DNA of 35,999 bases from Deltaproteobacteria bacterium (lineage in GTDB: Bacteria; Desulfobacterota; Syntrophia; Syntrophales; UBA2210): NCBI GenBank assembly GCA_016933965.1, contig JAFGTS010000005.1, positions 1-35,999 of the forward strand, in the 5' to 3' direction. The position numbers and the translations under genes are program-made. Positions within the stretch are counted from its first letter, which is position 1. Every line of letters starts with the position of its first letter. Shown piece by piece: positions 2,776 to 24,732 of the stretch. The notes under the pieces are model-generated. The model was given only the letters and a program-made list of their open reading frames with translations. It was not told the DNA's origin and ran no database searches.

Positions 2776-4551
2776 ATGACGATGGCACGCAAGCGATCAT
2801 GGATAACGGTACCGCCCCTGATAATTATCGGGGCCGTGATAATTCTCGGGGCGATCCTGCTCTTCGTTACCCTTGAGAACATACACAGAGAGAACGAAAA
2901 CGCGGAAAACCTTCTTTTGGAACGAGGAAGCGCGCTCATCCGCTCCTTTGAAGCGGGCATCAGGACCGGAGTCCTGGGCATGCAGTGGGACAGTCCCCAG
3001 ATCAGAAAATGGCTCACGGAAACGGCCCAGCAACCCGGCATATTCTACCTGGTGGTAACGGATCACACCGGGAAGATCCTCGCGCACAGCGATCCCTCAA
3101 AGATCGGCGAGCAGTACGAAACGGAACTGGATCTCGAGTCCGTCACACAATCACCTCTGCCCACGTGGAGAAAAAAATCAGAATCCCGTGGCCAGGAGGT
3201 ATTTGAAATTGCAAATAAGTGCTCGCCCCTTCCCGGCCAGCTGGTTACTTACATTCGAACGGAGTCACCCCATGAATGGCTCCGTTTGCAGATATCCGCA
3301 AAGGAAGGTGAAGAGATCGCCAGACTCGCCATGGTCGTGGGGCTGGATATGGCACCCATTGAACGGGCCAGAAAGGAAGATATACGAAACACCATTCTCG
3401 CGGCACTGTTCCTGCTGCTCCTGGGATTTGCCGGGATCGTATCTCTCACTCTCGCCCACGGATACCGTGCGGCGAGAACGACGCTGACAAAGATCAAGGC
3501 ATTCTCCGATACTCTTGTGGACAACATGCCGGTAGGCATCATAGCCCTTGACCGCGAGGAACTGGTAACATCAATAAACCCCACGGCGGAACTGCTTCTG
3601 CGTACAACCCGGGAGACGTCCGTCGGAAAACCTGCCGATAAGGTCATTCCCGGGCCGATCAGGAAAATGACGGAAGAACTGAAGAGGGGTGAACACATAA
3701 CAGCCCATGAACTGGAATGTGCCGTAGAACCGGGTTTGACGCTTCCGCTTGATGTAACGGCCACCATTCTGGAAGAGGATGACGGAACGTTTCTGGGCCA
3801 TGTCTTTCTCATTCGGGATCTCACTGAGATACGGAAACTGCGCCGGGAGATAGAGAGAAGCCAGCGGCTGGCGTCCCTGGGACGGCTTGCCGCGGGAATA
3901 GCTCACGAAATAAGAAACCCCCTGAGTTCGATCAAGGGATTCGCCACGTACTTCGGGGAACGCTACCGCGATGTTCCGGAGGACCGGGACACGGCGCAGA
4001 TAATGGTGGAAGAAGTGGACCGGTTGAACCGCGTCATCGGCGAACTTCTGGAGTTCGCGCGTCCGATGAACATCCAGTTGCGGGAAACATCACTGCCTGA
4101 ACTGGTGCAGCATGCGGTGAAACTTGTCGAAGAACAGGCCCGTGACAGGAACATCACTCTCGCGGTGCATGCCGGTTCGGAAATTCCCGCCGTTCCTGTC
4201 GATCCGGACCGGTTCAATCAGGTCCTGCTGAACCTCTATCTGAACTCCATACAGGCGATGGAAGATGGCGGCCTGCTGACGACGAACATCATTCCGAACG
4301 GACCGCGTGAGGTGAGCATTATCGTGACCGATACGGGAAAGGGAATCCCCCGAAAGGACCTGGGAAAAATATTTGATCCCTATTTTACGACCAAGCCCTC
4401 CGGAACAGGCCTGGGTCTTGCCATCGTCCACCGCATCATAGAGGCCCACGAAGGGACCCTGCGCGTCGAGAGCGAACCGGGGAAGGGAACAACGGTGCGA
4501 ATATCGCTGCCCCTTCAGAGTGGCGGGGTGGTGAATAACAGAGGGGTGTGA
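2776..4551 (+). CDS. Membrane sensor histidine kinase, ZraS/NtrB-like
   Basis: The 591-residue protein has a transmembrane segment at about 10-32, an extracytoplasmic sensor region of about 170 residues (contains FYLVVTDHTGKILAHSDPSK, Cache/PAS-like), a second segment at about 206-230, a PAS domain at about 240-355, a HisKA domain with His377 in GIAHEIRNPLSSIKGF, and an HATPase domain ending with DTGKGIP and GTGLGLAIVHRI. It phosphorylates the response regulator encoded 40 bases downstream. The architecture is that of ZraS-type kinases paired with sigma54 activators. The ATG at 2776 lacks a good ribosome site and a second ATG follows at 2779; no other start precedes the first membrane segment. 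The signal is unknown; the nearby storage protein makes a metal or oxyanion possible, as inference only. Confidence 0.92.
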   Translation: MTMARKRSWITVPPLIIIGAVIILGAILLFVTLENIHRENENAENLLLERGSALIRSFEAGIRTGVLGMQWDSPQIRKWLTETAQQPGIFYLVVTDHTGKILAHSDPSKIGEQYETELDLESVTQSPLPTWRKKSESRGQEVFEIANKCSPLPGQLVTYIRTESPHEWLRLQISAKEGEEIARLAMVVGLDMAPIERARKEDIRNTILAALFLLLLGFAGIVSLTLAHGYRAARTTLTKIKAFSDTLVDNMPVGIIALDREELVTSINPTAELLLRTTRETSVGKPADKVIPGPIRKMTEELKRGEHITAHELECAVEPGLTLPLDVTATILEEDDGTFLGHVFLIRDLTEIRKLRREIERSQRLASLGRLAAGIAHEIRNPLSSIKGFATYFGERYRDVPEDRDTAQIMVEEVDRLNRVIGELLEFARPMNIQLRETSLPELVQHAVKLVEEQARDRNITLAVHAGSEIPAVPVDPDRFNQVLLNLYLNSIQAMEDGGLLTTNIIPNGPREVSIIVTDTGKGIPRKDLGKIFDPYFTTKPSGTGLGLAIVHRIIEAHEGTLRVESEPGKGTTVRISLPLQSGGVVNNRGV

Positions 4552-4591
4552 CAGGGGTCCGCAACGCCCCGGCTTGAAGAAGGACAGGAGC

Positions 4592-5944
4592 ATGGATCAG
4601 AAGGGGACAATTCTCGTTGTTGATGATGACCGGGCACATCGTACCATGCTGCGGACGCTTCTCAAGGGGTGGGGCTATCCCGTGGAGGAGGCGGATGACG
4701 GCGACAGGGCCGTCGAGATGGTACGTGAACGTGCCTTTGATCTGATCCTGATGGATATCCGTATGGTGCGGGTTTCCGGGCTCGAGGCCCTTGAGATGAT
4801 AAAGGATATCAACCCGGCCATTCCGATCATCATCATGACGGCCTATTCATCCATTGAGACCGCGAAGGAGGCCCTGAAAAAAGGAGCCTATGATTACCTC
4901 ACAAAACCACTGGATTTCGACGAACTGAAGATCATCATGGCCCATGCCATGGAGCACCGGCAGCTTCGCGAGGAAAACCGGATGCTCAGGGAACACCTGG
5001 GGGCGCAGTTCGACCCGGGGAATATCATCGGCCGCAGCGAGACCATGGTGCAATTGATGGAAACCGTGGCCCAGGTGGCGCCCTCGGACGCCACCGTTCT
5101 CATTTCCGGTGAATCGGGAACGGGAAAGGAACTGATCGCCGGGGCGATCCACTATAACAGTTCCCGGAAGCTCGGACCTTTCATCAGAATAAACTGTGCC
5201 GCCATTACGGAAACCCTTCTTGAGTCAGAACTGTTCGGGCATGAAAAGGGTTCCTTTACCGGTGCCGATCGGAAAAAGGAGGGAAAGTTCCGACAGGCCG
5301 ACGGAGGTACCCTGTTCCTCGATGAAGTGAGCGAGATGTCGCTCTCGATGCAGGTAAAATTGCTCCGGGTCCTGCAGGAACGTGAGATAACGAGGGTCGG
5401 CGGTGAAGAGGTGATACCCGTCAATGTCCGTGTCATCGCGGCCACGAACAAGGACCTGGTCAGGGAAGTGGATGAAGGGCGTTTTCGTGATGACCTCTTT
5501 TATCGCCTGAACGTGGTCTCCATCAGGGTGCCGGGCCTGGTGGAGCGCCGGGATGATATTCCGCTCCTGTCGCAGCACTTTCTGAACCTCTTCGCTGAAA
5601 AGAATAACAAGAACATACGGGGATTCACGCCACAGGCGATGGACCGGCTCATCAAGCACCGGTGGCCGGGGAATATCCGGGAGCTCATGAACGTTATCGA
5701 GCGTGCCGTCGTGCTCACCAGGGCCGAGTATCTCGACGAGGATGACCTGTCGATCGCCGGCGGGCAGGGCCAGGCTGCAGCCGCCGAATTCTCCGGGAAT
5801 GTGCCCCTCGAGGAGGTTGAAAAAAGCACCATACTCAAGACGCTCGATATAACGGGAGGGAACAAGAGCGAGACAGCGCGGCGGCTTGGGATCACCAGGA
5901 AGACACTGCGGGAGAAGCTGAAGAAATACGGGGTGTCCGATTAA
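4592..5944 (+). CDS. Sigma54-dependent response regulator, NtrC/ZraR family
   Basis: The 450-residue protein has a receiver domain with phosphoacceptor Asp55 (LILMDIRM), an AAA+ domain with Walker A GESGTGKE at 173-180, the sigma54-contact loop GSFTGA at 220-225, the GGTLFLDE Walker B, an arginine-finger region, and a C-terminal Fis-type HTH (GGNKSETARRLGITRKTLRE). Phosphorylation should drive oligomerisation, remodelling of sigma54 holoenzyme and promoter opening. The loop reads GSFTGA rather than the commoner GAFTGA, a tolerated variation. I chose ATG 4592, preceded by AGGACAGGAG; the upstream TTG at 4574 adds six residues. It lies 40 bases after the kinase and 90 bases before the storage-protein gene on the same strand. 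Confidence 0.95.
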   Translation: MDQKGTILVVDDDRAHRTMLRTLLKGWGYPVEEADDGDRAVEMVRERAFDLILMDIRMVRVSGLEALEMIKDINPAIPIIIMTAYSSIETAKEALKKGAYDYLTKPLDFDELKIIMAHAMEHRQLREENRMLREHLGAQFDPGNIIGRSETMVQLMETVAQVAPSDATVLISGESGTGKELIAGAIHYNSSRKLGPFIRINCAAITETLLESELFGHEKGSFTGADRKKEGKFRQADGGTLFLDEVSEMSLSMQVKLLRVLQEREITRVGGEEVIPVNVRVIAATNKDLVREVDEGRFRDDLFYRLNVVSIRVPGLVERRDDIPLLSQHFLNLFAEKNNKNIRGFTPQAMDRLIKHRWPGNIRELMNVIERAVVLTRAEYLDEDDLSIAGGQGQAAAAEFSGNVPLEEVEKSTILKTLDITGGNKSETARRLGITRKTLREKLKKYGVSD

Positions 5945-6034: not shown

Positions 6035-6892
6035 ATGGCGAAACTGACAAAGGAAAAGGGTGCCCGGGGGCGACTGCACATCGAATCACCGCTGACGGGT
6101 GAATCCCTTGTCAGCAAGGAATTTCTGAAGAGAACGGAGATAACCGATCATTTCCGGATGCATCCCGATATCAATGTCGTCAAGATCGGGGGTCAGAGTA
6201 TCATTGACAGGGGGCGGGACGCCCTCCTGCCTGTTCTCGACGTCCTTGTCCAGGCCAAGGAACAGCATAAGATACTACTTATGACAGGCGGTGGGACGAG
6301 AGCCCGCCATGTATTTTCTATCGGCATGGACCTGGGCATGCCGCCCGGCGTCCTTTCAAAACTCGCCGATAAGGTGTCCTGGCAGAATGCTGAAATGGTC
6401 AGCGTCCTCCTTGCCAAACACGGCGGGGTCAAGATCGGTCACGGTGACAATCTCGAGCAGCTTACCATGTTCTGCCAACTTGGCTTCCTGCCGATCACTT
6501 ACGGTGTCCCTCCATATGGATATTTTGAACATCCGGCCCAGTTCGGCGCCATTCCTCCCCACCGGACCGACTGCGGCGCCTTTCTCCTGGCGGAAAATAT
6601 CGGTGCCCGTTCACTGATCTATCTCAAGGATGAAGCAGGTCTTTTCCCCCTGGACCCCAAGAAGGTGAAACAGGCGCAGCGTAAGGGTTTGCGTCCTTTT
6701 AAACGGATTTCCGTTGACGAACTTCTCGATATGGATCTCGACGACCTCATCATCGAACGAGATGTACTGACCCTCATGAAACGGGCGAAACTTATCGACA
6801 AACTGCAGGTGATCGACGCCCTGCATTATCCGGGGCACATTCTGGCGGCCCTTGAAGGCGAGGAGGTGGGTACCGTCATCTACCGGTCATAG
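6035..6892 (+). CDS. Molybdenum storage protein (MosA/MosB)-like amino acid kinase
   Basis: The 285-residue protein has the amino-acid-kinase fold and resembles the Azotobacter MoSto subunits along its length: VVKIGGQSIIDRGRDA near residue 48, GGGTRARHVFSIGMDLGMPPG at about 87-107, IPPHRTDCGAFLLAENIGA at about 171-189, and a C-terminal KLQVIDALHYPGHILAALEG. Known MoSto is an alpha3beta3 cage that uses ATP to pack polyoxomolybdate or tungstate inside. Only one subunit gene is seen here, so the cage may be homomeric or the partner is elsewhere. Ribosome site AAAGGAG lies seven bases before ATG 6035. It sits after the sigma54 two-component pair and before the tungstate transporter, which supports a Mo/W role. 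UMP kinase is a weaker alternative because the length and HR-D-GAF motifs fit MoSto. Confidence 0.85.
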   Translation: MAKLTKEKGARGRLHIESPLTGESLVSKEFLKRTEITDHFRMHPDINVVKIGGQSIIDRGRDALLPVLDVLVQAKEQHKILLMTGGGTRARHVFSIGMDLGMPPGVLSKLADKVSWQNAEMVSVLLAKHGGVKIGHGDNLEQLTMFCQLGFLPITYGVPPYGYFEHPAQFGAIPPHRTDCGAFLLAENIGARSLIYLKDEAGLFPLDPKKVKQAQRKGLRPFKRISVDELLDMDLDDLIIERDVLTLMKRAKLIDKLQVIDALHYPGHILAALEGEEVGTVIYRS

Positions 6893-6914
6893 GGGAGATG
6901 TTTGTCAGTACCTA

Positions 6915-7121
6915 TCAATCAGCCGGTTTTTCTTCCTTGCCGGCCTTGAGGATCACCAGTTCGGCGCCTGTCGCCGCCGCGATCTGCTCAAGCTCCATTT
7001 TTCTCATGTGCACGGCATGGAAGGTAAGGTCGACGCCGCTGACGCCGCATACCCGGAAGCGGGGCTTTTTTTCCCCCTCTTCGATCTTTCTTCGCTCTCG
7101 AACAAAAATCAACGGTTTCAT
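6915..7121 (-). CDS. Small conserved-looking protein of unknown function, 68 aa
   Basis: I do not recognise this protein. The start is well supported: ATG 7121 has AAAGGAGA eight bases upstream, while the longer frame to 7193 adds a hydrophobic non-conserved leader that overlaps the divergent PadR promoter. The sequence is MKPLIFVRERRKIEEGEKKP at the N-terminus, then a segment with a single Cys (FRVCGVSGVDLTFHA), then a helical part with MRKMELEQIAAATGAELVIL and a charged tail. It has no signal peptide and no membrane segment. It is divergent from the padR-like gene (70 bases between starts) and convergent with the storage-protein gene (22 bases). The arrangement suggests it may be a target of that regulator. 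Confidence 0.65.
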   Translation of the reverse strand: MKPLIFVRERRKIEEGEKKPRFRVCGVSGVDLTFHAVHMRKMELEQIAAATGAELVILKAGKEEKPAD

Positions 7122-7191
7122 AGCGTTCTCCTTTTCAGGAATATTTAAATAGTATATATATCCTAAAAGAACATATGTCAAAGGATAGATC

Positions 7192-7557
7192 ATGGAAAGA
7201 GGAAAAAGAAAACGTCACCCATCAGAGGGCAGGCAGGAGCGGTACATTCAGCCGTCACTGCTGCTCGGTCTCTGTAGCGGTTCATCCTATGGTTACGAAT
7301 TGATAAAAAAAATAAAGGACCTTGGATTCATTCAGGGACCGGTGCCGCCGGGAATGATCTACCGGCACCTCCGGCAGCTGGAAGATGACGGCCTTGTATC
7401 CTCCCGGTGGGACACGAAGGGAACGGGACCGGCGAAGCGGATCTATCATCTCACCGAGGCAGGAACGGAGATGCTCGCCCTCTGGGTGGACTTCATGGAA
7501 GAGCAGAAGAACTGCCTGAACGCCTTTCTTGAGCGATATGAACAACTTATAAGGTGA
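7192..7557 (+). CDS. PadR-family transcriptional regulator
   Basis: The 121-residue protein is a winged-helix regulator of the PadR family: YIQPSLLLGLCSGSSYGYEL opens the domain, followed by the recognition region GMIYRHLRQLEDDGLVSSRW and the wing with GPAKRIYHLTEAG. A short C-terminal helix (about residues 95-121) would give the dimer, as in PadR-s1 types. Such proteins usually repress a neighbouring or divergent gene and release DNA on binding a small ligand. The most likely target is the divergent 68-residue gene and its own promoter. The first ten residues are basic. The convergent TiaS-like gene ends 20 bases downstream. The ligand is unknown. Confidence 0.9.
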   Translation: MERGKRKRHPSEGRQERYIQPSLLLGLCSGSSYGYELIKKIKDLGFIQGPVPPGMIYRHLRQLEDDGLVSSRWDTKGTGPAKRIYHLTEAGTEMLALWVDFMEEQKNCLNAFLERYEQLIR

Positions 7558-7577
7558 GGGAAAACTGAAAATCCTTC

Positions 7578-8318
7578 TCAGGGGAGCATGGTTACCTTTC
7601 CCCCTCTTCCCTTTGGTTCGTCAATGCATTCCCAGACACCATTTTGCCGGGCCTTCAGTGGGATGACGGCCTGGCCGCCCCAGAAACGGGGACGGACCCA
7701 GCCTTTTGAGATGACCATATCATCGGGTGAAGGAACGCAGGCGTTCCTGTCGAGCGATACCGCCTGGATACAATGCCTTGAAAATTCCGATACAGGAAAT
7801 ATTGCAGGGAAGTCGCGGAGCCGGCCGAACTCTATGAAACGGCCGCACCAGCCCGTCGCGGTAAGCCCGACCGCAGCGGCCGCACCGATGATTCCGTCAT
7901 TCGTACCGCCGTGGCCGGAGAGGTGAATACCATCCGTCGCCCGAAGGGCATCCCGCTGGGTTACGACCTCCTTCACGCATCGATAGCCGAAGCCCTTCAG
8001 TTCGTTGAGAACGCCGTTTCCTTCGATGGCGACGCAGATGCCGGGGTCACTCCCCTCCAGGGAATATTTCCTGACGTGTTCGATCGCCCGGCAGGTGATC
8101 GTGTCCAGCAGGGATCTGTCGGGAACATGAACGACAACACAGGCGGCGCTGTTGTGGGACGTATAGGGGATAGCATCATTTACGAGAAGTTGCTGGCGTA
8201 AAACACCCCAGAGCCGGCATTCCTCCGGAAGAAAGTTCTCGAACCATCTGGCCAGTTTTCCCGTTCCACGGTCGGAATCGAGCGTGTCCGTATCATCAAA
8301 CCCGATATATGCTTTCAT
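7578..8318 (-). CDS. TiaS-like protein (N-terminal domains only), last gene of tungstate operon
   Basis: The 246-residue protein begins MKAYIGFDDTDTLDSDRGTG, the signature of the archaeal tRNA-Ile2 2-agmatinylcytidine synthetase kinase domain (GIDDTDS type), and continues with a ferredoxin-like part containing GHGGTNDGIIGAAAAVGL at about 165-182. Archaeal TiaS is about 420 residues and ends in an OB fold and a zinc ribbon for tRNA binding; both are missing here. Bacteria normally make the equivalent tRNA base with TilS, so tRNA agmatinylation is unlikely. The gene starts 31 bases after wtpC ends and is in the same direction, with GGGAAAG before ATG 8318. Its role may relate to tungstate or molybdate use, or to a small-molecule phosphorylation. 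This is inference from position. Confidence 0.72.
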   Translation of the reverse strand: MKAYIGFDDTDTLDSDRGTGKLARWFENFLPEECRLWGVLRQQLLVNDAIPYTSHNSAACVVVHVPDRSLLDTITCRAIEHVRKYSLEGSDPGICVAIEGNGVLNELKGFGYRCVKEVVTQRDALRATDGIHLSGHGGTNDGIIGAAAAVGLTATGWCGRFIEFGRLRDFPAIFPVSEFSRHCIQAVSLDRNACVPSPDDMVISKGWVRPRFWGGQAVIPLKARQNGVWECIDEPKGRGGKVTMLP

Positions 8319-8349
8319 GTTTTCTTTCCCGACGGGTACCGGCAGCCGT

Positions 8350-9387
8350 TCAAAAACAGTGTATCGATGATGCCTTGAATGACACGTGCAGGGGTACCCC
8401 TTCACTGATTTCAAGTTCTATCAGAGATCGTTTTGTTATCGATGCCTTGAAGGTCGATGAACCGACTTCGACCTCCACCTCGTAATACAGCCCCTGGTCG
8501 ATCACTTTCCTGACGGTGCCGGGAAAGGTGTTTCTCATGCTGGAATCGATGTTTTCCCGGCTGAGGACCACGTCTTCAGGGCGAATGGCCACATAACCCC
8601 TGCTGTTCGGCGGTTGCCGCCCCACGTCGATTTCGATCCCTCCGTAACGGGCCGTCTGATTGGTAAATTCAACGGGAAAGAGATTTTTCATCCCCACGAA
8701 GTCGGCGACAAAGGCGGAGTTGGGGCGCTGGAAAATGTCCTTGATGCTTCCCACCTGCACGATCTTCCCCTCGTTCATGATAGCGCCGCGGTCAGCCAGT
8801 GAAAGGGCGTCGATGAAGTCGTGGGTGACCATGAAAAACGTGGACCGGGACGACCGGTGAAGGCGCTTGAGTCCTCTTCGGACCTCTTCACGGAACCCGG
8901 GGTCCAGGGCCGACAACGGTTCGTCGAGAAGCAGGATCTTCGGTTCCACCATGAGCGCGCGGGCAAGGGAAACACGCTGGTTCTCCCCGCCGCTCAGGTT
9001 CGTGGGGAGCCGTTTCAGCAGATGTGAAAGGTTCAGGTCCTCCACGAGGTGATCCATCCGCCGTTTCCGTTCCCTTTTATCCACCCGGTGAAAATGAAGT
9101 CCGTAGGTGATATTTTCCGCCACCGTCAAATGCGGAAAGAGGCAGAAATCCTGGTATACGATGGCCACGCCCCGTTTTTCAGGGGGGCGCCGTGTCACGT
9201 TCCGCTCTTCAATGAAAATGTTCCCCCTCTCGATCGGGACCAGTCCAGCGATTGCCTCAAGAAGCACGGTCTTTCCGGCGCCGGTCGGTCCCATGAGCAC
9301 GAAAAACTCGTTTTCACCGATATCAAGGGTAATGTCTGAGAGGACGAAATCACCCAGTGTGGTGCCGGCATGTTCGATTCGGATCAT
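8350..9387 (-). CDS. wtpC: Tungstate/molybdate ABC transporter ATP-binding protein
   Basis: The 345-residue ATPase shows Walker A GPTGAGKT (33-40), a Q-loop in VYQDFCLFPHL, the signature LSGGENQR, Walker B ILLLDEPLSALD and the switch histidine in VTHD. The last 110 residues form a TOBE-like domain (GYVAIRPEDVVLS), typical of ModC/WtpC, which can bind oxyanion and inhibit transport. It powers the permease encoded just upstream, whose stop overlaps this start as ATGA. The partner binding protein is of WtpA type, so tungstate is at least as likely a substrate as molybdate. Sequence alone cannot rank the two. Confidence 0.92.
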   Translation of the reverse strand: MIRIEHAGTTLGDFVLSDITLDIGENEFFVLMGPTGAGKTVLLEAIAGLVPIERGNIFIEERNVTRRPPEKRGVAIVYQDFCLFPHLTVAENITYGLHFHRVDKRERKRRMDHLVEDLNLSHLLKRLPTNLSGGENQRVSLARALMVEPKILLLDEPLSALDPGFREEVRRGLKRLHRSSRSTFFMVTHDFIDALSLADRGAIMNEGKIVQVGSIKDIFQRPNSAFVADFVGMKNLFPVEFTNQTARYGGIEIDVGRQPPNSRGYVAIRPEDVVLSRENIDSSMRNTFPGTVRKVIDQGLYYEVEVEVGSSTFKASITKRSLIELEISEGVPLHVSFKASSIHCF

Positions 9388-10169
9388 GTCTGTTTTCCAC
9401 TCCTGAGCGTGAGTATCCGGAGGATCAGAAAGAGCAGCAGGCAGACCGTCACCAGCCAGACGGCCACCGGTTGAGAGTACCGCAACCCGTATCCTTCGAA
9501 ACGCTCATAGATGAGAACCGGCGCGATCATTGGATGGTAGGCGACGATGACGACGGCGCCGAACTCGCTGATCGCCCGCGCCGAGCACATGATAAGACCG
9601 ATGAGCATGCTCCGCCAGGCAAGGGGGAAGGTGATCCGTGAGAAGGTTTCGAACATGGTCGCGCCGAGGCTTCGTGATACGTTCTCCAGGCGCGGCGAGA
9701 TGCTTTCAAAACCGTTCTTGACGGTATTCACATAAAAGGGGATCCCCACAAAGGTGAGGACCGTGACGATTCCTGTTACACTGCCCATGATCCGGATCCC
9801 CAGTTCGCTGAAGAGCTCGCCGATCCAGTGATTTTTTCCGGCCACGCTGAGGATCGCGATGCCCACCACGGGATGGGGGATGACGATCGGAAGATCGATG
9901 ATGCTTTCCACGAACCGCTTACCGTAAAAGGTGGTGCGTGCAAGGATATAGGCAAGAGGTGTCCCGAAAACAAAAGAAATGAGTGCGGCCAGTCCGGCCG
10001 TGTATATACTCAGCCAGATCGACCGCACCACATTCGGGTCCTTCATGGTTTCCCGCATCATGACCAGAGACGGCGCGGTCAGCATTTCGATCAGGGGAAC
10101 CAGGATGAAAGCGATTATCAGAACACCGCATGATACAGTGACCCAGAAAAACGGTTCTTTCCGTATCAT
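9384..10169 (-). CDS. wtpB: Tungstate/molybdate ABC transporter permease
   Basis: The 261-residue protein has about six hydrophobic segments, beginning with FFWVTVSCGVLIIAFILVPL, and the cytoplasmic EAA loop VSRSLGATMFETFSRITFPL that contacts the ATPase. The segment PIVIPHPVVGIAIL before it is characteristic of molybdate, tungstate and sulfate permeases. It forms the inner-membrane channel of the WtpABC importer. It starts 73 bases after wtpA ends and overlaps wtpC by four bases. ModB would be an equally valid family name; WtpB is preferred because of the neighbouring binding protein. Confidence 0.92.
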   Translation of the reverse strand: MIRKEPFFWVTVSCGVLIIAFILVPLIEMLTAPSLVMMRETMKDPNVVRSIWLSIYTAGLAALISFVFGTPLAYILARTTFYGKRFVESIIDLPIVIPHPVVGIAILSVAGKNHWIGELFSELGIRIMGSVTGIVTVLTFVGIPFYVNTVKNGFESISPRLENVSRSLGATMFETFSRITFPLAWRSMLIGLIMCSARAISEFGAVVIVAYHPMIAPVLIYERFEGYGLRYSQPVAVWLVTVCLLLFLILRILTLRSGKQT

Positions 10170-10242
10170 AAATATCTTTCTAACCTTTAATGCTTTCGTA
10201 AAAAGTCACAACAAAAGGCACAGGGACTTTTATCCGACATCG

Positions 10243-11229
10243 TCAATCCTTCACTTCCACGAGATTCTTCAATTCCGCCGGGAGACGCTCCAGCATGGCG
10301 GCCGTGGGAACCCGGCAGGGGATGAAGGGAGGCTGGCCCATGTCCTTGAGGACCTTCAAACCACCCTGGGGATCAAGCATGTATGCCAGAAAGGCGATCG
10401 CCGCCTCTCTGTTTGGTGCGTTCTTTATGAGGGTGACACCGTAAGTACAGGAACTTCCCTTCATCTCCATGAAGGTGCCCGGTTCCTTGCCGGTGACCTT
10501 GACGACCGCTTCCGCATAAAGGTTATCGTACTGGTAATTTCCGAGATTTATCTCGTCGGGAAGAATAATGTATTTGAGTTCGTGCTGAACGGCGACTGAA
10601 AGGTATTCCCAGGCATAATCCATGTTGCCCGTCTGGAGGAGCGAGACGAGCTCGACGGACTTGGGCCTGATGTTCTCGATGGGGCGATTGGCCAGTAATT
10701 TTTCATAGAGTCCCGGGATCTTGTAATATTTTTCCGCGAGCTGCAGGACCATGAGGGAGCGGTATCCGCAGGGGTCGAGATTCGGGTCGGAGTGGCCCCA
10801 GACAACTCCTTCCTTCTGAAGGATCTCATACCAGTTTCCCGCATTGACCTCGCCGGCATAAGCGCTCTTGTCGGTATAGCAGAGGACGAGCTGGTTCGTC
10901 GCGAAACGGATGTTCACGTCTGCATATTCAGGCACCAAAAGCTTGTCGATGACCGTGTAATCCGCCGACGCCATGATGTCGCAGGGTTTCTTGAGGTCCG
11001 ATACCTTCCGGGCCGCCTTCTGACTTCCGCTTGCCTCGCGCTGAAGGTCAACCTTCGGATATTTCGCTTCAAAGGCCTTTTCCATGGCTTCAAAAGGAAC
11101 CGAAAGGCTTCCGGCGTGGAACATGTCCAGCGTTCCCGACGGTTCCGCCGGTGCGCCCCCAGGGAACGCACAGAAGATAAACATGAAAAAAGCCGCCGCG
11201 ATGAATACTGACGAATATTTTAATTTCAT
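10243..11229 (-). CDS. wtpA: Tungstate/molybdate-binding periplasmic protein, WtpA type
   Basis: The 328-residue protein has a signal peptide ([20 protein letters not shown], probable cut after APA at about 28), then the WtpA/ModA opening [20 protein letters not shown] and [13 protein letters not shown], positions that bind the oxyanion. Length and layout match archaeal WtpA more than enteric ModA (about 257 residues). It captures tungstate and/or molybdate in the periplasm for WtpBC. AAGGAAAGGAG lies just upstream of ATG 11229. It is the first gene of the operon wtpA-wtpB-wtpC-tiaS-like and faces a divergent HTH/PBP regulator across about 260 bases with a promoter and candidate operator. Confidence 0.93.
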
Positions 11230-11328
11230 GGTTCCAGACTCCTTTCCTTTTTGCCGGAGTTTTTTGCGGGTCGGCTGTTGCCGGCATCACTTTTTTCAAA
11301 CAGCCACGGCCGCCCGGACAAAGTCCTT

Positions 11329-11357
11329 TTTAAAACAAAATTGTCATTATCTGTCAA
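11329..11357 (-). promoter_or_regulatory. Sigma70-like promoter of the wtpA operon
   Basis: On the minus strand, TTGACA (11357-11352), 17 bases, then TTTAAA (11334-11329) gives a consensus -35, ideal spacing and a 4/6 -10. It lies about 100 bases upstream of wtpA, leaving a leader of roughly 95 bases. Confidence 0.5.
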
Positions 11358-11379
11358 TATCAAATACTATTCATAACAA
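11341..11379. promoter_or_regulatory. Candidate operator overlapping the wtpA promoter
   Basis: TTGTCAT at 11341-11347 and ATAACAA at 11373-11379 form a near-perfect inverted pair (6 of 7) separated by 25 bases. The pair spans the -35 element and part of the spacer of the wtpA promoter, where a repressor would block transcription. The divergently encoded HTH/PBP protein is the natural candidate to bind. A second perfect palindrome, CAACATGTTG at 11459-11468, lies just before that regulator's own start. Neither site matches a motif I can name with certainty. Confidence 0.35.
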
Positions 11380-11493
11380 ATACGGATGAGTTGTTTCGAT
11401 AGGGACATATGACCATTTCCTGAGTTCCTCCGTGACCAACGACCCGGAAGACCACGCACAACATGTTGACAATCTTATCGATTGACGAAGGTC

Positions 11494-12396
11494 ATGATCC
11501 GTGGTACTGAATCCCGCATGGATGAAATGCTGACAACGAAGGAACTCGCCGAGATTCTCCGGTTGAATGAGAAAAAGGTGTATCAACTTGTCAGGGACGG
11601 TGGTGTGCCCCACGTGCGGATCGCCGGCAAATGGCTTTTCCCCCGTAAACATGTGATGCGCTGGCTCGATGAGCAGGTGCATCGTGAACGGGACATCCGG
11701 ATCATGGGAAGTGACGATGTCCTCGTGGACCGTCTCATTTCCCTCTATTCCCGTGAGCAGTACCCGGAATCGATGGCCTTTTATGCGGCCATGGGAAGCA
11801 CGAAAGGAATTGACGCCCTTTCACGGAAAAAGGGCCACGCCTGCTGCACTCATATCCTTGACACGGAAACGGGTGAGTATAATCTTCCCGTACTTGCGCG
11901 ACTGATGCCGGACCGGCAGTATGTGGTGATCAATCTCTGGTACCGGAAACAGGGGCTCATCGTCAAAAAAGGGAACCCCCTGGGGATCGGGTCGCTGGCG
12001 GACGTGGCGAGGCGAAAGGCGACGTTCATAAACCGGAACAAGGGTTCCGGTACAAGGGTCCTGCTGGAATATCTCCTGGGCGAAGAAGAGATCGACGAAC
12101 GGGACATCACCGGATTTACCGATGAAGTGGATTCTCATCTCGGTGTCGCCCTGAGAGTTCTTTTCGGTGAGGCCGATGCCGGTGTCGGTATCGAATACGT
12201 TACCCATCCCCTGGGACTTGATTTTGTGCCGATCCGGGAAGAACGGTTCGATCTCGTCGTGCCGAAGGAACTCTGGTCAACGGGGATCGTCAGGGAATTC
12301 GTTTCCTACCTTGATCCGCTGAGGATTAAAAAAATATCCCGTAACCTTCCGGGCTATGATCTTCGTGAAACAGGAAAAGTGATATTTGAGGGCTGA
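11494..12396 (+). CDS. HTH regulator with periplasmic-binding-protein-like sensor domain
   Basis: The roughly 300-residue protein joins an excisionase/MerR-like HTH (LTTKELAEILRLNEKKVYQL, with HVRIAGKWLFPRKHVMRWLD) to a PBP-like domain of about 220 residues related to oxyanion-binding proteins (LPVLARLMPDRQYVVINLWY; FINRNKGSGTRVLLEYLL; FGEADAGVGIEYV). This fusion is known next to molybdate or tungstate transporters in anaerobes and is thought to sense intracellular oxyanion. It is divergent from wtpA. The start is uncertain: TTG 11482, ATG 11494 and ATG 11518 are in frame, and none has a well-spaced ribosome site; the HTH fold begins just after 11518. No signal peptide precedes the sensor domain, so it acts in the cytoplasm. 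Confidence 0.85.
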   Translation: MIRGTESRMDEMLTTKELAEILRLNEKKVYQLVRDGGVPHVRIAGKWLFPRKHVMRWLDEQVHRERDIRIMGSDDVLVDRLISLYSREQYPESMAFYAAMGSTKGIDALSRKKGHACCTHILDTETGEYNLPVLARLMPDRQYVVINLWYRKQGLIVKKGNPLGIGSLADVARRKATFINRNKGSGTRVLLEYLLGEEEIDERDITGFTDEVDSHLGVALRVLFGEADAGVGIEYVTHPLGLDFVPIREERFDLVVPKELWSTGIVREFVSYLDPLRIKKISRNLPGYDLRETGKVIFEG

Positions 12397-12422: not shown

Positions 12423-12677
12423 TCATCCATACCGCGCTTTCATGATCACAATATAAAAGGAGAACGAAAACCCCACGGCGTTTCCTGCGATAACGGGTGC
12501 CGAGCGGATCAGAATACCGTAAATGAACCAGAGAAAGAGCCCCACCGATAGGACCGAAAAGGCCCAGAGCGAAAGGTCCTTTGTTTTTTTGGTCCGGTAC
12601 ACCTTGATGACCTGGGGTGCCATGGACAGGGCCGATATGAAGGCGGCGACGAACCCGATGATGGCGGCTGTTTCCAT
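12423..12677 (-). CDS. SemiSWEET-type sugar transporter (PQ-loop, 84 aa)
   Basis: The 84-residue protein has three predicted membrane helices: ETAAIIGFVAAFISALSMAP, then the PQ motif and a basic loop (PQVIKVYRTKKTKDLSLW), LSVGLFLWFIYGILI, and AVGFSFSFYIVIM. This is the three-helix unit of SemiSWEETs, which dimerise to make a sugar pore. It follows manC by 49 bases in the same direction, which hints at mannose or another hexose, though substrate cannot be read from sequence. It is convergent with the HTH/PBP regulator, 26 bases away; CGCGGT 12414-12419 and ACCGCG 12431-12436 could pair across that junction. Confidence 0.88.
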   Translation of the reverse strand: METAAIIGFVAAFISALSMAPQVIKVYRTKKTKDLSLWAFSVLSVGLFLWFIYGILIRSAPVIAGNAVGFSFSFYIVIMKARYG

Positions 12678-12726: not shown

Positions 12727-13800
12727 TCAGAGATACTCCTTGCGCTGTTTTCCTTCCAGTTCTTCCACGATCTTCCGCACCTCCTGGGAATGACCTCTTT
12801 TGCAGATCATGAGAGAGTCCCCGGTTTCAACCACGATGATATCCTCAATACCGACCAGGGCAAGCAGTTTTTCACCACCGAGCACCAGGGTGTTTCGAGT
12901 ATCGGCGGTCACGATATTCCCCTGGAGGGCATTGCCATCGGGGTCTTTTTCCAGAATTTCCCAGAGCGCGTCCCAGCTTCCGAGGTCACTCCAGCGAAAA
13001 TCACCTTCGACGCACAGGACGTTCCGTGCCATTTCAAGGACCCCGTAATCGATCGAAACCGGTGTGATCCGCGAATAAGCCCCGGCGAGGGCGTCCCGTT
13101 CCGCTGTCGTGCCGAGGGAATCACTGACGGCGCTGAGCGTTTCATACATCTCGGGGAGAAACCGCTGTATCTCCTCAAGAATGGCGGAGGCTTTCCAGAG
13201 GAACATGCCGCTGTTCCACAGGAAGGAACCTGTTTTGACGTATGTTTCAGCTGTCTCGCGGTCCGGTTTTTCCCGGAATGAAGCAACGTCGTAAACGGCC
13301 CTTCCTCTGATCTCATCGATCTTAGGCCCCCGCTCCACGTATCCGTATCCTGTTTCGGGCGCCGTCGGCCGGATGCCGATGGTGACCAGGTGCGAACCGC
13401 GGGCGGCCGCGTCGCGGGCCGCGGCAAGGGTGTCGATAAATTTTTCTTCGTCCAGGACCAGGTGGTCCGACGGCAGCACGGCCATGATCGCGTCGGGATC
13501 ACGCTTCACAAGGTACAGGGCGGCCAGGCAGATACAGGGCGCGGTATTTCGTCCCATCGGCTCGATGATGATGTTCTGTTCGGGGATTTCAGGAAGTTCC
13601 CGGCATACATCGGCTGCATGGTTTGCGGCGGTGACGATGATGGTATCGGCGGCCGGCACAAGGGGCTGTATCCTGTCGACGGTGCATCGGATGATCGACC
13701 GGTCCCCCGTCATGCAGAGAAGGTGTTTCGGCCTGCATTCCCTGCTCAGGGGCCAGAACCTGGTCCCCCGGCCGCCGGCCATGATGACGGCATACATCAT
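12727..13800 (-). CDS. manC: Mannose-1-phosphate guanylyltransferase
   Basis: The 357-residue enzyme makes GDP-mannose from mannose-1-phosphate and GTP. The nucleotidyltransferase signature VIMAGGRGTRFWPLSRECRPK is at about 5-25, followed by IIEPMGRNTAPCICLAAL and VLPSDHLV, then FREKPDRETAETY, WNSGMFLWKA and GDFRWSDLGSWDAL. It has the short single-activity form without the C-terminal isomerase domain found in 470-residue ManC/AlgA. The start overlaps the preceding CoA-transferase/GNAT stop as ATGA; a second ATG follows at once. GDP-mannose feeds surface polysaccharides, but no glycosyltransferase is in the window. Confidence 0.95.
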   Translation of the reverse strand: MMYAVIMAGGRGTRFWPLSRECRPKHLLCMTGDRSIIRCTVDRIQPLVPAADTIIVTAANHAADVCRELPEIPEQNIIIEPMGRNTAPCICLAALYLVKRDPDAIMAVLPSDHLVLDEEKFIDTLAAARDAAARGSHLVTIGIRPTAPETGYGYVERGPKIDEIRGRAVYDVASFREKPDRETAETYVKTGSFLWNSGMFLWKASAILEEIQRFLPEMYETLSAVSDSLGTTAERDALAGAYSRITPVSIDYGVLEMARNVLCVEGDFRWSDLGSWDALWEILEKDPDGNALQGNIVTADTRNTLVLGGEKLLALVGIEDIIVVETGDSLMICKRGHSQEVRKIVEELEGKQRKEYL

Positions 13801-15698
13801 GAGAGGCTCCCCTGTGGTTTGTTCACGGCATCGCCTTCTTCCGTGAAAGGTATGGTGAACTCGTACACGCCGAAATTGACCACGGCATGGATCGGATATC
13901 CCAGCTTCTCAAAGACCTTGATCATGGGCTTGTTGTCGGTGATGACGTCCGCCGTAAAGCCCTCGATATCGTTCTTCTTTGCCAGTTTGATCAAGGTCCT
14001 GAGGAGATAGGAACCGATGCCGATCCCCTGGTATTTCTCGTCGGTGATGAAGGCCACATCGGCGAAGGTGGGGCGGTCCTTGAGACGGACATAGCGGGCC
14101 TCGGCGATGATCCGTTCATGCCCCTCCTCTTCTATGATGCCCACGATCGACATGGTGCGTTTGAAATCCACGTTCACGTATTCCTGCATCTTCATATGCG
14201 GCATGGTCTTGATGGGACTGAAATACCGGTAATACACGGCCTGATCGGAAAATCGGTAAAAGAGCCTGCGCATGTCGTCTTCATCGGAGGGTTTGATGGG
14301 CCGGAAACGGATCGTTGTGCCACCCTTGAAGGTCTGGGTATATGAGATCTCATGAGGGTACAGATGCCCGGATTCGGTCAGGTATATCTGGTCCCGGTAC
14401 AGGATGTTGCTCGTCTTGGCCATCTGGACCAGGGCGCCCCGGTCATCGGGATGGGCGATGTCTATCAGCGCCAGGGCGCGTTCACGCACCGTCTTGCCCC
14501 GCAGGGAGGCCACCCCGTATTCCGTCGCGATCATGTCGAGGGATTCCCGGTTGGTGAACTGATTGGGGAATTCTTCCACGGAGAGCATGATGTTCGGTTG
14601 TCCCTTGAGGTTCCGGCTGGGGAGGGCGAACACGGTCCGTCCGCCCTTTGAAAGGGCCGCGCCGGCGAACATCTCCTGTACCTCTCCCGGTCCCGGGTTC
14701 ACGTTCCCCTTGCCCGTGTGAAGGGCGATCCCTCCTGTGATATCCACTTTCCTGGCCGGCAGGATCGCGATGAAATTATCGTTCTGGCTGATGTTCTGAG
14801 GGTTCGCGATAACGTCGATCCCCTGGAATTCGATCAGCGGGTTGCGGTGGATCCACTTCAGGAGCTTATCCGTTCCCAGGGCATAGGCGGCCACGGTCTT
14901 GCCCCGGAAAAAGTCCTTTTTCCGGTTCGTGACCACACCGGTTCTTACCAGGTCCATCACAGCATCGGTGAGGGTGATGGTATGAATGCCGAGATCATGC
15001 TTGTGTTCCAGATGCCGGGGGAGCGCCTCGAAGAGCGGTCCGATCGAGTAGTGGATGCAGCTGCCGTCCTTGATGACGGTGGCCACATTGGCCGCCAGCT
15101 TGTCAAAGGAATCGTCGTAGGGCCACCGGTTGAGATAGAGCGGTTTCTCCGTCGATTGCACGAGAAAATCAAAATCGCCGGCATGTACGAAGGTATCACC
15201 CAGGGTGCAGGGAATGTCTTCGTTGATCTCGCCCACAACGAGAGATGCGCAGTCCATGGCGTACCGTGCCGCGTCGATGGCGATGCCGAGGCTTGCAAAC
15301 CCCTGCTCATCGGGTGTTGAGATCTGTATGAAGGCCACGTCAACGTCGATCGAACCGGACCTGAAAAGCCAGGGAATGGAGGATGTCCTGCTCGGTACCA
15401 GGTCGATGCGCCCTGCCGTGATCGCTTCACTGGCAAGCCACCCGGCGAAAAAGGTCTTCAGGCGATATTTGTGCCGGTATCTCTCGTCGATGGGTATGGC
15501 GTCTCCGAAACTGACAAGCTGGACGAGTTCAAGGTCTCGCAGATTGCTCTGGTCCGACATCATGAGGTGCTTGACCAGTGTGCGGGGCTCGGCCTGGCCT
15601 GTCCCGAGAAAAATGCTCATTCCCGGCTTGACCTCGGCCAGGACCTCTTCGGGGGTGACGATCTTCTTTTTCCAGTCATCGGAAAGCCTGTACGACAT
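13797..15698 (-). CDS. Acetyl-CoA hydrolase/transferase-like protein fused to GNAT acetyltransferase
   Basis: The 633-residue fusion has an acetyl-CoA hydrolase/4-hydroxybutyrate CoA-transferase-like region (about 1-440; GMSIFLGTGQAEPRTLVKHL, later TEYGVASLRGKTVRERALAL and IDIAHPDDRGAL) and a GNAT domain (about 470-620; acetyl-CoA loop YQGIGIGSYLLRTLIKLAKK). In active CoA-transferases of this family a catalytic Glu stands in a block like INSAIEVDLTG; here the equivalent block reads ILPARKVDITG (312-322), with Lys317 at that place. The transferase half may therefore be non-catalytic, perhaps an acyl-CoA sensor for the acetyltransferase, or may use another residue. It starts 101 bases after the rRNA methyltransferase ends and is translationally coupled to manC. 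Confidence 0.88.
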   Translation of the reverse strand: MSYRLSDDWKKKIVTPEEVLAEVKPGMSIFLGTGQAEPRTLVKHLMMSDQSNLRDLELVQLVSFGDAIPIDERYRHKYRLKTFFAGWLASEAITAGRIDLVPSRTSSIPWLFRSGSIDVDVAFIQISTPDEQGFASLGIAIDAARYAMDCASLVVGEINEDIPCTLGDTFVHAGDFDFLVQSTEKPLYLNRWPYDDSFDKLAANVATVIKDGSCIHYSIGPLFEALPRHLEHKHDLGIHTITLTDAVMDLVRTGVVTNRKKDFFRGKTVAAYALGTDKLLKWIHRNPLIEFQGIDVIANPQNISQNDNFIAILPARKVDITGGIALHTGKGNVNPGPGEVQEMFAGAALSKGGRTVFALPSRNLKGQPNIMLSVEEFPNQFTNRESLDMIATEYGVASLRGKTVRERALALIDIAHPDDRGALVQMAKTSNILYRDQIYLTESGHLYPHEISYTQTFKGGTTIRFRPIKPSDEDDMRRLFYRFSDQAVYYRYFSPIKTMPHMKMQEYVNVDFKRTMSIVGIIEEEGHERIIAEARYVRLKDRPTFADVAFITDEKYQGIGIGSYLLRTLIKLAKKNDIEGFTADVITDNKPMIKVFEKLGYPIHAVVNFGVYEFTIPFTEEGDAVNKPQGSLS

Positions 15699-17033: not shown

Positions 17034-17744
17034 TTACGCTTCGTCACCAATGTCGGCAAACCGGTACCCGAAACCCCGGATGGTAAGGATAAACCGTGGA
17101 TTGGAGGGGTCTTCCTCTATCTGTGCTCGAAGTCGGCGGATATGCACGTCGACGGTCCTGGGCTCAACGAAGGCTTCATCGCCCCAAACGTAATCGAGCA
17201 GTTGGTCGCGCGTATAAAGCCGGCCGGGATGGGCCGCCAGAAAAGCGAGAAGTTTGAACTCCGTGGGGCTCAGCTCGATCTTTCGGCCTCGGAGGGTTAC
17301 CGTGTGGTGACCTCTGTCCACCTCGAGGCCGCCGTGACGGATGACATCCTGTCCACCCTCCACCTTTTGCCGTTCCGTCCTTCGAAGAATCGTTTTGACG
17401 CGGGCGACAAGCTCCCTGACACTGAAGGGTTTCGTAATGTAATCATCGGCGCCCATCTCCAGCCCCAGGACCCGGTCCAGTTCGTCATTTTTCGCCGTGA
17501 GCATGATGATGGGGAGGTCCTGGAGATCGGCGCTCTGCCGTATGATCCTGCATATCTCCATCCCCTGAATGCCCGGAAGCATGAGATCGAGGATCATCAA
17601 TCTCGGCTGTTCCTTCTGAATGATCTGAAGGGCCCGCTCTCCATCATGGGCCCCGATGGTGGAAAACCCTTCCTTTTCAAGATTGAAACAGATCAGGTCA
17701 ACGATATCTCTTTCATCGTCGACGACGAGTATTTTATCTGTCAC
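17034..17744 (-). CDS. phoB: Phosphate regulon response regulator PhoB
   Basis: The 236-residue OmpR-family regulator has a receiver domain with Asp9/Asp10 and phosphoacceptor Asp53 (LMILDLMLPG), the switch region MLTAKND and conserved Lys in TKPFSVRELVAR, and a winged-helix domain (IELSPTEFKLLAFLAAHPGR; RTVDVHIRRLRAQIEEDP; RGFGYRF). It starts at GTG 17744 because the only nearby ATG runs out of frame into a stop; GGAGG lies 12 bases upstream. It would be phosphorylated by PhoR at low phosphate and bind Pho boxes such as that before pstS. Unusually, it is split from phoR by a plus-strand symporter gene. The assignment as PhoB rests on this neighbourhood. Confidence 0.9.
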   Translation of the reverse strand: MTDKILVVDDERDIVDLICFNLEKEGFSTIGAHDGERALQIIQKEQPRLMILDLMLPGIQGMEICRIIRQSADLQDLPIIMLTAKNDELDRVLGLEMGADDYITKPFSVRELVARVKTILRRTERQKVEGGQDVIRHGGLEVDRGHHTVTLRGRKIELSPTEFKLLAFLAAHPGRLYTRDQLLDYVWGDEAFVEPRTVDVHIRRLRAQIEEDPSNPRFILTIRGFGYRFADIGDEA

Positions 17745-18069
17745 CGGGTGACATATCCTCCACCATTTTTCATTTCTCGAAAAGTAGATATAACTGTAAA
17801 CAGGAGAAGAAAAATTCTCAAGAACTTAATGACACGAAATTCATATTCCTGGAAAAGCTCTCAATTCAAATATGTTGCCCTTTCACAGTGGTGTGTCCCC
17901 GTGAGGGCCGAATAAACTTTTTGCGGCCGGAGACTGTTTCTGTTTGACTCACTATTTCTTTATTGTTATTTCTACACAACCTGTTATTGAAAGGTGACGC
18001 GGGGCAAGTTCACAGGTTGCCGGCCGTGATCGATACATCGGCGTAAACCGTAATCCCGCAAGGAATTAT
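17745..18069. other. 325-bp intergenic region between divergent phoB and the Na/Pi symporter
   Basis: AT-rich, with no coding frame. It must contain promoters for phoB (minus) and the symporter (plus). I looked for pairs of CTGTCAT-like repeats at 11-bp spacing and found only weak half-sites (for example CTGTTATTG near 17980), so PhoB control is not shown by the sequence here. AAGGA lies seven bases before the symporter ATG. Confidence 0.6.
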
Positions 18070-19677
18070 ATGGAATTCAACGTGTTACTCGGGGTCATCG
18101 GCGGGCTGGGGCTGTTCCTTTTTGGAATCAATCTTCTCAGCACCTCCCTCAAGGCCCTTTCTCTCGGTATTCTCAAAAAACTCCTGGACAAGGTCACGTC
18201 AAACAGGGTCCGGTCCGCACTCGTCGGTGTCGTCGTTACCTCCATCATACAGAGCTCGAGCGCCACATCGGTACTCCTCATCGGTTTCCTGAACGCGGGG
18301 CTTATCACGCTGGTGGGTGCACTGCCCGTTATCTTCGGAGCCAATATCGGAACCACCATTACGGCCCAGCTCATCGCCTTCAAGCTGACGAAATCAGCGC
18401 TTCTCTTCATCTTTATCGGCGCCATCGTGTACCTGTTTTCGAAAATGGAAAAGAACAAGAACCGGGGCGCGGCGCTGCTGGGGTTCGGGATCCTCTTCCT
18501 CGGATTGTCGACGATGGGCGCCGCCGTCAAGCCCCTTGCCCAGAATGAAGCGGTCGTTCAATTATTCCTGTATTTCGGCCAGAAACCGCTTCTCGGGATC
18601 CTGACGGGATTGATCGTGACCGTCGTTCTCCAGAGCAGCAGTACAACGGTGGGCATGGTCATCGCCTTCGCCTCCGCCGGCCTTCTGGATCTTCCGTCGT
18701 CCATATATCTGGTTCTGGGAGATAACATCGGGACCTGCATCACGGCGATCATTGCCAGTATCGGGGGAAAACTCGCAAGCAAGCGGCTTGCTCTCGGTCA
18801 CACCCTGTTCAATGTGATCGGGACGATGATCATGTTTCCCCTCATCCCGCTCTATGTGCGTTACATGCCGCTTCTCTCCGGCGATATCGCCCGGCAGATA
18901 GCGAACACGCACACCATCTTCAACCTCATTAACACCATCATCCTGCTGCCCTTTGTGACGCTCTTCGTCGCAGTTCTCATGAAATTGATCCCCGGTGAGG
19001 ATTATGAAAAACGGGGTATCAGGTACCTTGACCGGAACCTGCTGGTGACGCCGAGCATGGCGATCAAGGCAACGATAAAGGAACTGTCCCAGATGCTGAT
19101 TATCTGCCAGGAGATGCTGGACAAGGCGAGAAAATGCGCGATCGATTACAACCACAAGCTGAAGAACGAGATCACCGTTGACGAGGAATCCGTTGATGAA
19201 ATGCAGAAAAGTATCACGGACTACCTTGTCGAAATCGCCCAGAGTGATCTTACCGATAAGGAGAAACGCCTTGTGCCGGCACTTCTGCACAGCGTCAATG
19301 ACCTGGAAAAGGTGGGGGACTACTGCGAGGCCATTGTGAAACTTTCACAGCGAGCCTATGAGTATAACCTGCCCTTTTCGTCGGCGGCAAAGGTTGAACT
19401 GGAGAAGCTCTTCGACAAGACGTCGACCCTGATGCGGCATACGAAGCGCGCCATGGAAGATGACGATCATGTGTCGGCGACGATCACCCTGAATATCGAA
19501 GGCGAGATTGATGAACTGATCAACCAATATAAGATAAACCACCTGAAGCGACTTGAGATCGGAACCTGTATCAGTGACGCGGGGCTGGTGTATTCGGACA
19601 TCCTGACCGACATCGAGCGTATGAACAATCACCTCTGCAATATCACGAAGGGAATCCTCCATATCGGGAAACGATAG
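18070..19677 (+). CDS. Na+/phosphate symporter with C-terminal PhoU-like domain
   Basis: The 535-residue protein belongs to the NptA/YjbB (PNaS, SLC34-like) family. The transport core of about 310 residues carries the inverted-repeat QSSS motifs: TSIIQSSSATSVLLIGFLNAG near residue 58 and VVLQSSSTTVGMVIAFASAG near 188, each in a hydrophobic pair of segments. The C-terminal 210 residues are helical and PhoU-like (LVPALLHSVNDLEKVGDYCE). It moves phosphate across the inner membrane with sodium, often as an exporter in bacteria. It is divergent from phoB and convergent with phoR, inserted between the two halves of the phosphate two-component system. Confidence 0.92.
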   Translation: MEFNVLLGVIGGLGLFLFGINLLSTSLKALSLGILKKLLDKVTSNRVRSALVGVVVTSIIQSSSATSVLLIGFLNAGLITLVGALPVIFGANIGTTITAQLIAFKLTKSALLFIFIGAIVYLFSKMEKNKNRGAALLGFGILFLGLSTMGAAVKPLAQNEAVVQLFLYFGQKPLLGILTGLIVTVVLQSSSTTVGMVIAFASAGLLDLPSSIYLVLGDNIGTCITAIIASIGGKLASKRLALGHTLFNVIGTMIMFPLIPLYVRYMPLLSGDIARQIANTHTIFNLINTIILLPFVTLFVAVLMKLIPGEDYEKRGIRYLDRNLLVTPSMAIKATIKELSQMLIICQEMLDKARKCAIDYNHKLKNEITVDEESVDEMQKSITDYLVEIAQSDLTDKEKRLVPALLHSVNDLEKVGDYCEAIVKLSQRAYEYNLPFSSAAKVELEKLFDKTSTLMRHTKRAMEDDDHVSATITLNIEGEIDELINQYKINHLKRLEIGTCISDAGLVYSDILTDIERMNNHLCNITKGILHIGKR

Positions 19678-19691
19678 CTATCATGCCCTTC

Positions 19692-22177: not shown

Positions 22178-22191
22178 TATTGTGTCCCCCT

Positions 22192-22953
22192 TTATCCGAA
22201 TCGGCCGGTGATATAATCTTCCGTCTGTTTTATATCCGGCGTGGTGAAGAGCTTTTCCGTCGGATTGTATTCTATCAGCTTGCCCAGGTAGAAGAAGCCG
22301 GTGTAATCCGAAACGCGGGCGGCCTGCTGCATATTGTGCGTCACGATGATGATAGTATATGCTTTTTTCAGTTCTTCCACCAATTCTTCGATCTTTGCGG
22401 TGGATATCGGGTCGAGCGCCGAGGTGGGTTCATCCATGAGAAGGATATCCGGTTTCATGGCAAGGGCACGGGCGATGCAGAGGCGCTGCTGCTGACCGCC
22501 GGAGAGGGCCATGGCTGACTGATTGAGAATGTCCTTCACCTCGCCCCAGAGGGACGCCTGTTTCAGGCTCTGTTCCACCAGTGCTTCAATGTCGGCCTTG
22601 TTCCATTGTCCCGTCAGTTTCGGTCCATAGGTAATGTTGTTGTATATGGACTTCGGAAAGGGATTCGGTTTCTGAAAGACCATGCCGATCCGTCTTCGGA
22701 TATCAACGGGATCGACCTTCGGATCATAGATGTTGATGCCCTCGAATATGACCTCTCCCTCAACCCGGGAGCCGTCTATCAGGTCGTTCATCCGGTTCAA
22801 GAGCCGCAGCAGTGTCGATTTGCCGCATCCCGATGGACCGATGAGCGCCGTTACCCTGTTTTTCCCGAAATCCATGGAAACGTCGACAAGGGCCTTGAAA
22901 TTCCCATAGTAGAAGTTGACGTTTTTTGTTTGTATGATCGGGCTATTATCCAC
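22192..22953 (-). CDS. pstB: Phosphate ABC transporter ATP-binding protein PstB
   Basis: The protein of about 253 residues has the PstB layout: [20 protein letters not shown], Walker [10 protein letters not shown], the Q-loop [20 protein letters not shown], signature [16 protein letters not shown], Walker [14 protein letters not shown] and H-loop [17 protein letters not shown]. It drives phosphate import through PstCA. Two GTG starts are in frame: 22962, overlapping the pstA stop, and 22953, which has AAGGTGG five bases upstream. I prefer 22953; the longer form adds only three residues. Confidence 0.95.
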
Positions 22954-22955
22954 GA

Positions 22956-24694: not shown

Positions 24695-24732
24695 TATGTA
24701 TTTCCCGAATGACCGTTCACTGAACGACCCGA

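Follow-up and report, generated by a model that had tools for sequence, protein, structure and literature searches.

A predicted tungstate/molybdate import and storage module around a single-subunit MoSto relative and two uncharacterised partner families

Within the 35,999-nucleotide stretch analysed here (positions 1 to 35,999 of contig JAFGTS010000005.1, hereafter the window) we recognise a compact group of genes that is best read, with a probability of about 0.58, as a tungstate/molybdate import and storage module. At its centre would stand a single-subunit relative of the storage protein MoSto, with two accessory factors: S68, a 68-residue protein of an uncharacterised family, and TiaSL, a stand-alone protein resembling the kinase-like (TCKD) part of TiaS. 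The original prediction had listed a storage subunit, the 68-residue gene, a PadR regulator, wtpABC, a TiaS-like gene and an HTH/PBP regulator, all of which proved to be real and to lie where it had placed them. Its wider proposal, that uptake, storage and sensing of one oxyanion are gathered here and that the unknown members belong to the pathway, is borne out in its genomic part by repeated co-occurrence, and its functional part coincides with our best reading. The functional coupling of MoSto, S68 and TiaSL is well supported; the wider module is indicated by the importers or formate dehydrogenases found near many loci and by the importers that also accompany unlinked TiaSL copies.

The association of the three genes was assessed at several taxonomic depths. 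The 60 relatives included 16 genomes with S68, 15 with MoSto and 17 with TiaSL; S68 was adjacent in all 15 MoSto genomes, and all 16 genomes with S68 also had TiaSL. The phylum set (297 genomes, at least 85% complete) contained single-copy MoSto in 19 genomes, with S68 adjacent and TiaSL present in every one of them, and the joint presence of the trio extended over 11 families. Fisher tests on these 297 genomes (p = 5e-28 for S68 with MoSto, 4e-25 for TiaSL with MoSto) ignore phylogeny and, the genomes being related, overstate the evidence. An independent repeat in the Syntrophomonas class (63 genomes) recovered MoSto in 24 genomes and S68 in the same 24, adjacent each time (24/24), while TiaSL occurred in 22 of these 24 as against 7 of the 39 others. 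No genome with an intact MoSto of the single-copy clade but without S68 was found in either set. The original prediction had made its survival depend on such recurrence in relatives, which is what we observe; PadR recurs as well, 38 of 79 loci having it divergent to S68. TiaSL need not be a neighbour: it is a divergent copy away from the cluster in at least 7 of the phylum's MoSto genomes, and was located elsewhere in the genome in 23 of 30 genomes picked because they mostly lacked TiaSL near S68. None of the five canonical mosAB loci checked (three phylum genomes, two Azospirillum plasmids) had S68 or TiaSL alongside. Aldehyde:ferredoxin oxidoreductase was considered as a further co-occurring marker and set aside as weak (p = 0.01), being present in all 19 trio genomes but also in 231 of the 297 overall. 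Literature searches on MoSto operons with extra partners, on PadR with molybdate and on TiaS with tungsten returned nothing relevant among the papers covered.

Scanning named genomes with an S68 profile yielded 141 relatives, and 80 loci were kept, mostly from Desulfobacterota and Bacillota, plus single loci labelled Chloroflexi, Synergistales and SAR324. MoSto lay beside S68 in 75 of 79 scored loci; those without it alongside were L067, L074 (whose contig holds a full set some 10 kb away), L119 and L132 (contig edge). Two architectures prevailed. In the window type (34 loci) S68 is flanked by a convergent MoSto on one side and a divergent PadR on the other, and the operon type (39 loci) has S68 followed by MoSto on one strand and no PadR, often with TiaSL in front (TiaSL>S68>MoSto). 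Both kinds of S68-MoSto pair stand side by side in one locus (L090, 7184-10250), and S68 is duplicated in tandem in L126 (10001-10617) and in genome G180 (contig C36). Neighbours over the 80 loci comprised TupA (19), WtpA (9), ModA (9), MOT1-like transporters (8), formate dehydrogenase alpha subunits (9, plus 7 N-terminal pieces) and FmdE-like proteins (9), counts that are lower bounds as many contigs are short; the names TupA, ModA and formate dehydrogenase stem from one representative per cluster, and MOT1 and FmdE from reading the sequences. In 19 of the 42 well-flanked loci, no molybdenum/tungsten transporter, formate dehydrogenase or FmdE gene was recognised within 8 kb.

The MoSto gene (6035-6892, forward strand) encodes a protein of the amino-acid-kinase fold whose best PDB match (phmmer) is A. 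vinelandii MosB (E = 9e-61 over residues 16-283), with MosA at 2e-46 and UMP kinases next at only 7e-7. The ATP-site motifs KIGGQS, GGGTRxRH, RTD and KDExGL are invariant in 13 homologues and common to MosB. The MoSto of A. vinelandii (MosA/MosB; PDB 2ogx, 4f6t) is a hexameric cage in which about 100 Mo or W are stored. The description of the subunit as MosA/MosB-like is upheld by homology to both, but has to be amended in that no tandem paralogous pair exists: the window's genome and the 18 other trio genomes have one MoSto gene each, and canonical mosAB pairs were confined, within the phylum set, to G067, G103 and G110. We therefore file the window protein under a related clade and not as mosAB. 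In a tree of 81 MoSto proteins this single-copy clade (99/94) is separate from canonical mosAB and divides by architecture into operon-type (100/94) and window-type (100/100) branches, bar one Chloroflexota row. Canonical pairs also occur near tungsten/molybdenum transporters in the phylum (L149); the single-copy clade differs from them in being one gene, always with S68 and nearly always with TiaSL.

A further difference concerns the metal site. Residues E129, H140 and H156, which we take to be the polyoxometalate ligands of A. vinelandii MosA, are replaced in the window protein by G135, F146 and G162, while H130 and Q136 are retained as H136 and Q142 (alignment through Azospirillum MosA). 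Since these presumed ligands are mostly lost, Azotobacter-style storage by the window protein is not assured; members of the clade may store another species, may receive ligands from S68, or may have another function altogether. A review describes covalent binding of octamolybdate by one histidine and one glutamate of MoSto, giving no residue numbers (PMC6294228). MoSto has also been called rather unique, with databases devoid of known homologues (PMC6448029). We note that public records call the MosB homologues on the Azospirillum plasmids (L197, 7983-8795; L198, 7998-8810) uridine kinase or UMP kinase, so that a search by name misses such relatives of MoSto.

S68 (6915-7121, reverse strand) invariably adjoins this MoSto clade. 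Its 82 aligned homologues show dN/dS of about 0.04-0.2 in close pairs, which marks it as a truly coding gene. I5, F6, R8, R10 and H38 are invariant, and E9, K12, E17, K18, K19, P20, R21, R40 and E43 nearly so; the conserved basic residues R8, R10, K12, K18, K19, R21 and R40, together with H38, form a dense set that would fit binding to an anionic cluster or an acidic surface. The AF2 model (mean pLDDT 79) comprises strands at residues 4-11 and 20-28, a helix at 41-51 and a strand at 54-58. Neither a sequence match nor a usable fold match was obtained in the PDB (Foldseek best E = 0.49; VIA best Z = 4.1), and there were no matches among 72,556 plasmid records. Pfam gave stray single-member hits only (DUF5915 in 2 of 82, best E = 3e-5), which we took as chance. 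Natural fusions of S68, TiaSL and MoSto were sought and none found, the long ORFs merely carrying an unrelated upstream frame. The Tub and Mop proteins, TOBE proteins of about 70 residues (PMC11980592), likewise have a presumed role in tungsten/molybdenum storage; S68 resembles them in size but has no TOBE match.

The PadR-family regulator (7192-7557, forward strand), transcribed divergently from S68, has a clear winged-helix domain (Pfam PadR, 63 bits against a cut-off of 27, E = 2e-17). By sequence reading, a predicted S68 promoter occupies 7153-7181 on the reverse strand (-35 TTGACA at 7181-7176, 17-bp spacer, -10 TATATA at 7158-7153), a layout common to PadR-type loci. Over it lies a putative 21-bp palindromic operator (7156-7176), with the consensus ATATATCCTTNAAGGATATAT, found directly 3' of a -35 element (TTGAC/TTGAT) reading towards S68 in 35 of 39 PadR-type loci and slightly displaced in L084 and L090. 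The window's palindrome, itself one of the training sites, has a PWM score of 29, whereas 20 shuffles reached no more than 12.1. A scan tolerating up to 3 mismatches gave no second site in the window's genome, and the best site of most other PadR-type genomes likewise falls at S68/PadR; the same scan found none in the PadR-type G207 or the operon-type G031, G147 and G199, and two weak matches in the operon-type G052. Given a single operator, placed over the S68 promoter, PadR is most simply understood as the dedicated local repressor of S68, which it probably is, and it may also repress itself. The original prediction is refined here: PadR does recur beside S68, but it apparently controls S68 alone and not the island. 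That the controlled gene is S68 rather than MoSto suggests that S68 alters what the store does.

TiaSL (7578-8318, reverse strand) lies 31 bp after wtpC on the same strand; its start is the ATG at 8318, and a longer listed frame begins at a TTG at 8414. Its AF2 model (pLDDT 91.8) superposes on TiaS, the tRNA-Ile2 agmatidine synthetase (4rvz, 3amt), with Z = 21.2 and an rmsd of 1.9 Å over 146 residues of 4rvz; the two share the kinase-like TCKD fold and the DDTD motif, invariant in TiaSL wherever the position is covered. The 246-residue chain aligns only to residues 1-243 of the 420 in TiaS and lacks the C-terminal OB and zinc-ribbon tRNA-binding domains, for which reason it should not be named TiaS; its score with the TiaS NCBIfam equivalog is 30.8 bits against a cut-off of 600. 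The genomic context differs too, being one of metal import. Thr18, presumably the autophosphorylation site of TiaS, falls on Gly18 of TiaSL in the ungapped alignment, and we make no claim on its conservation. A similar length and fold (Z = 17.1) are found in 3u02, a stand-alone TiaS-like protein of unreported function from Pyrococcus furiosus, a tungsten-using archaeon. TiaSL copies unlinked to S68 lie beside TonB receptor and ECF transporter genes, or beside BtuF-type ABC importers. In six loci (L152, L153, L155, L156, L158 and L159) such a MoSto-unlinked copy adjoins a TonB-dependent receptor, a double-ABC ECF ATPase and a CbiQ-like T component, a set that we regard as a candidate outer-plus-inner membrane metallate importer.

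The importer itself is of the ordinary Wtp type, with nothing unusual about it, and is replaced by Tup or Mod types in other loci. WtpA (10243-11229), a tungstate/molybdate-binding protein with solved homologues, exceeds both NCBIfam equivalog cut-offs (458 bits against 355 for NF003196). For the permease WtpB (9384-10169) and the ATPase WtpC (8350-9387) the corresponding models are the top matches, with scores below the cut-offs (NF040839, 297 against 340 bits; NF040840, 387 against 440); all three genes are on the reverse strand. Divergent from wtpA, a one-component regulator (11482-12396, forward strand) combines HTH_17 (Pfam E = 8e-15) with a PBP_like domain (1e-64), and HTH-PBP regulators occur near 13 of the 80 loci. 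The PBP_like domain is also found fused to archaeal-type MoeA1; tungsten has been proposed as its ligand, and it co-occurs with TupA (PMC11733289). A cytosolic tungstate/molybdate sensor is a plausible role for the HTH-PBP protein. Its operator region was inspected by eye and we claim no motif there. A SemiSWEET gene (12423-12677) adjoins this regulator and is near the HTH-PBP gene in L058 as well.

We reason that the module would work as follows. WtpABC would import the oxyanion, and the MoSto relative, probably a homo-oligomer, would pack it into an ATP-dependent cage. S68, as the obligate accessory of this clade, most likely uses its conserved basic residues to bind either the cage or the anionic content, and could thereby control loading, retention or release of the store. 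TiaSL, kinase-like and tied to several importer kinds, might consume ATP in a step that lies between import and either storage or release. PadR, acting from the operator over the S68 promoter, would repress S68 and so make it the switched component, and the HTH-PBP protein may sense the cytosolic oxyanion and probably controls wtpABC. A bolder and distinctly tentative version would join the MoSto homologue, S68 and TiaSL in one three-component, ATP-driven metallate machine. In it, TiaSL would use ATP for activating or transferring the oxyanion, the cluster-binding or gating groups absent from the MoSto clade would come from S68, and the control that PadR exerts on S68 would allow filling or emptying of the store on demand; if true, this would be relevant to the release of metal from MoSto-type stores inside cells. 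Since S68 and TiaSL accompany MoSto across several phyla, metal storage of this kind probably needs partners not yet described. The clade occurs in anaerobes from several phyla, sulfate reducers and syntrophs among them, and is tied to two uncharacterised protein families and a putative, defined regulatory site. This offers S68 and TiaSL as named partners with which loading and unloading of such a store in vivo can be addressed, and connects a MoSto-type store with organisms that have many formate dehydrogenases and aldehyde:ferredoxin oxidoreductases.

The loss of the presumed MosA ligands also agrees with a system in which nothing is stored and the trio (an amino-acid-kinase-fold enzyme, a TiaS-like kinase and S68 as a small carrier or scaffold) processes the metallate with ATP, or makes a small molecule or modification for tungsten/molybdenum enzymes. 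Amino-acid kinases and TiaS are both ATP enzymes, and formate dehydrogenase and FmdE-like genes are among the neighbours; we nevertheless consider it unlikely, given that the closest solved relatives are by far MosB and MosA (E about 1e-60 and 1e-46, kinases only 7e-7) and that importers dominate the neighbourhood. S68 could, instead, serve the importer or TiaSL, as its regulator or assembly factor, and have only the metal in common with MoSto, without touching the cage. Genomes G059 (locus L067) and G306, which have S68 with TiaSL and a PadR but no MoSto, speak for this, as does the adjacency of TiaSL to several importer kinds; yet S68 tracks MoSto (adjacent in all 19 and all 24 genomes above) even where TiaSL is unlinked, and we hold such a role to be rather improbable.

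Least credible by a wide distance is that the genes are passengers of horizontal transfer, travelling together without functional coupling. The patchy distribution and the presence of the module in several phyla would suit it, but S68 and MoSto stay adjacent although the gene order around them takes two forms, many trio genomes retain a divergent TiaSL at another place, and S68 is under strong purifying selection.

Several other features of the window deserve mention. No Rfam elements or tRNAs were found in it. Upstream of the MoSto gene, sharing its strand and separated from it by 90 bp, lie a histidine kinase and an NtrC-type response regulator (2776-5944), a pair that is not kept in L033. 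A TrmO/TsaA-like gene lies at 1010-1525, and similar genes adjoin TiaSL in L073 and occur near MoSto in L102. The region 13797-15698 encodes a CoA-transferase-like protein with a GNAT-like C-terminus; 4 of the 80 loci (e.g., L059, 16307-18154) have a homologue of it close to S68. Further downstream, 17034-25675 forms a phosphate-uptake cluster with PhoB/PhoR-like regulators, PhoU, PstBACS-like genes and a Na/Pi cotransporter-like gene (names by ORF reading).
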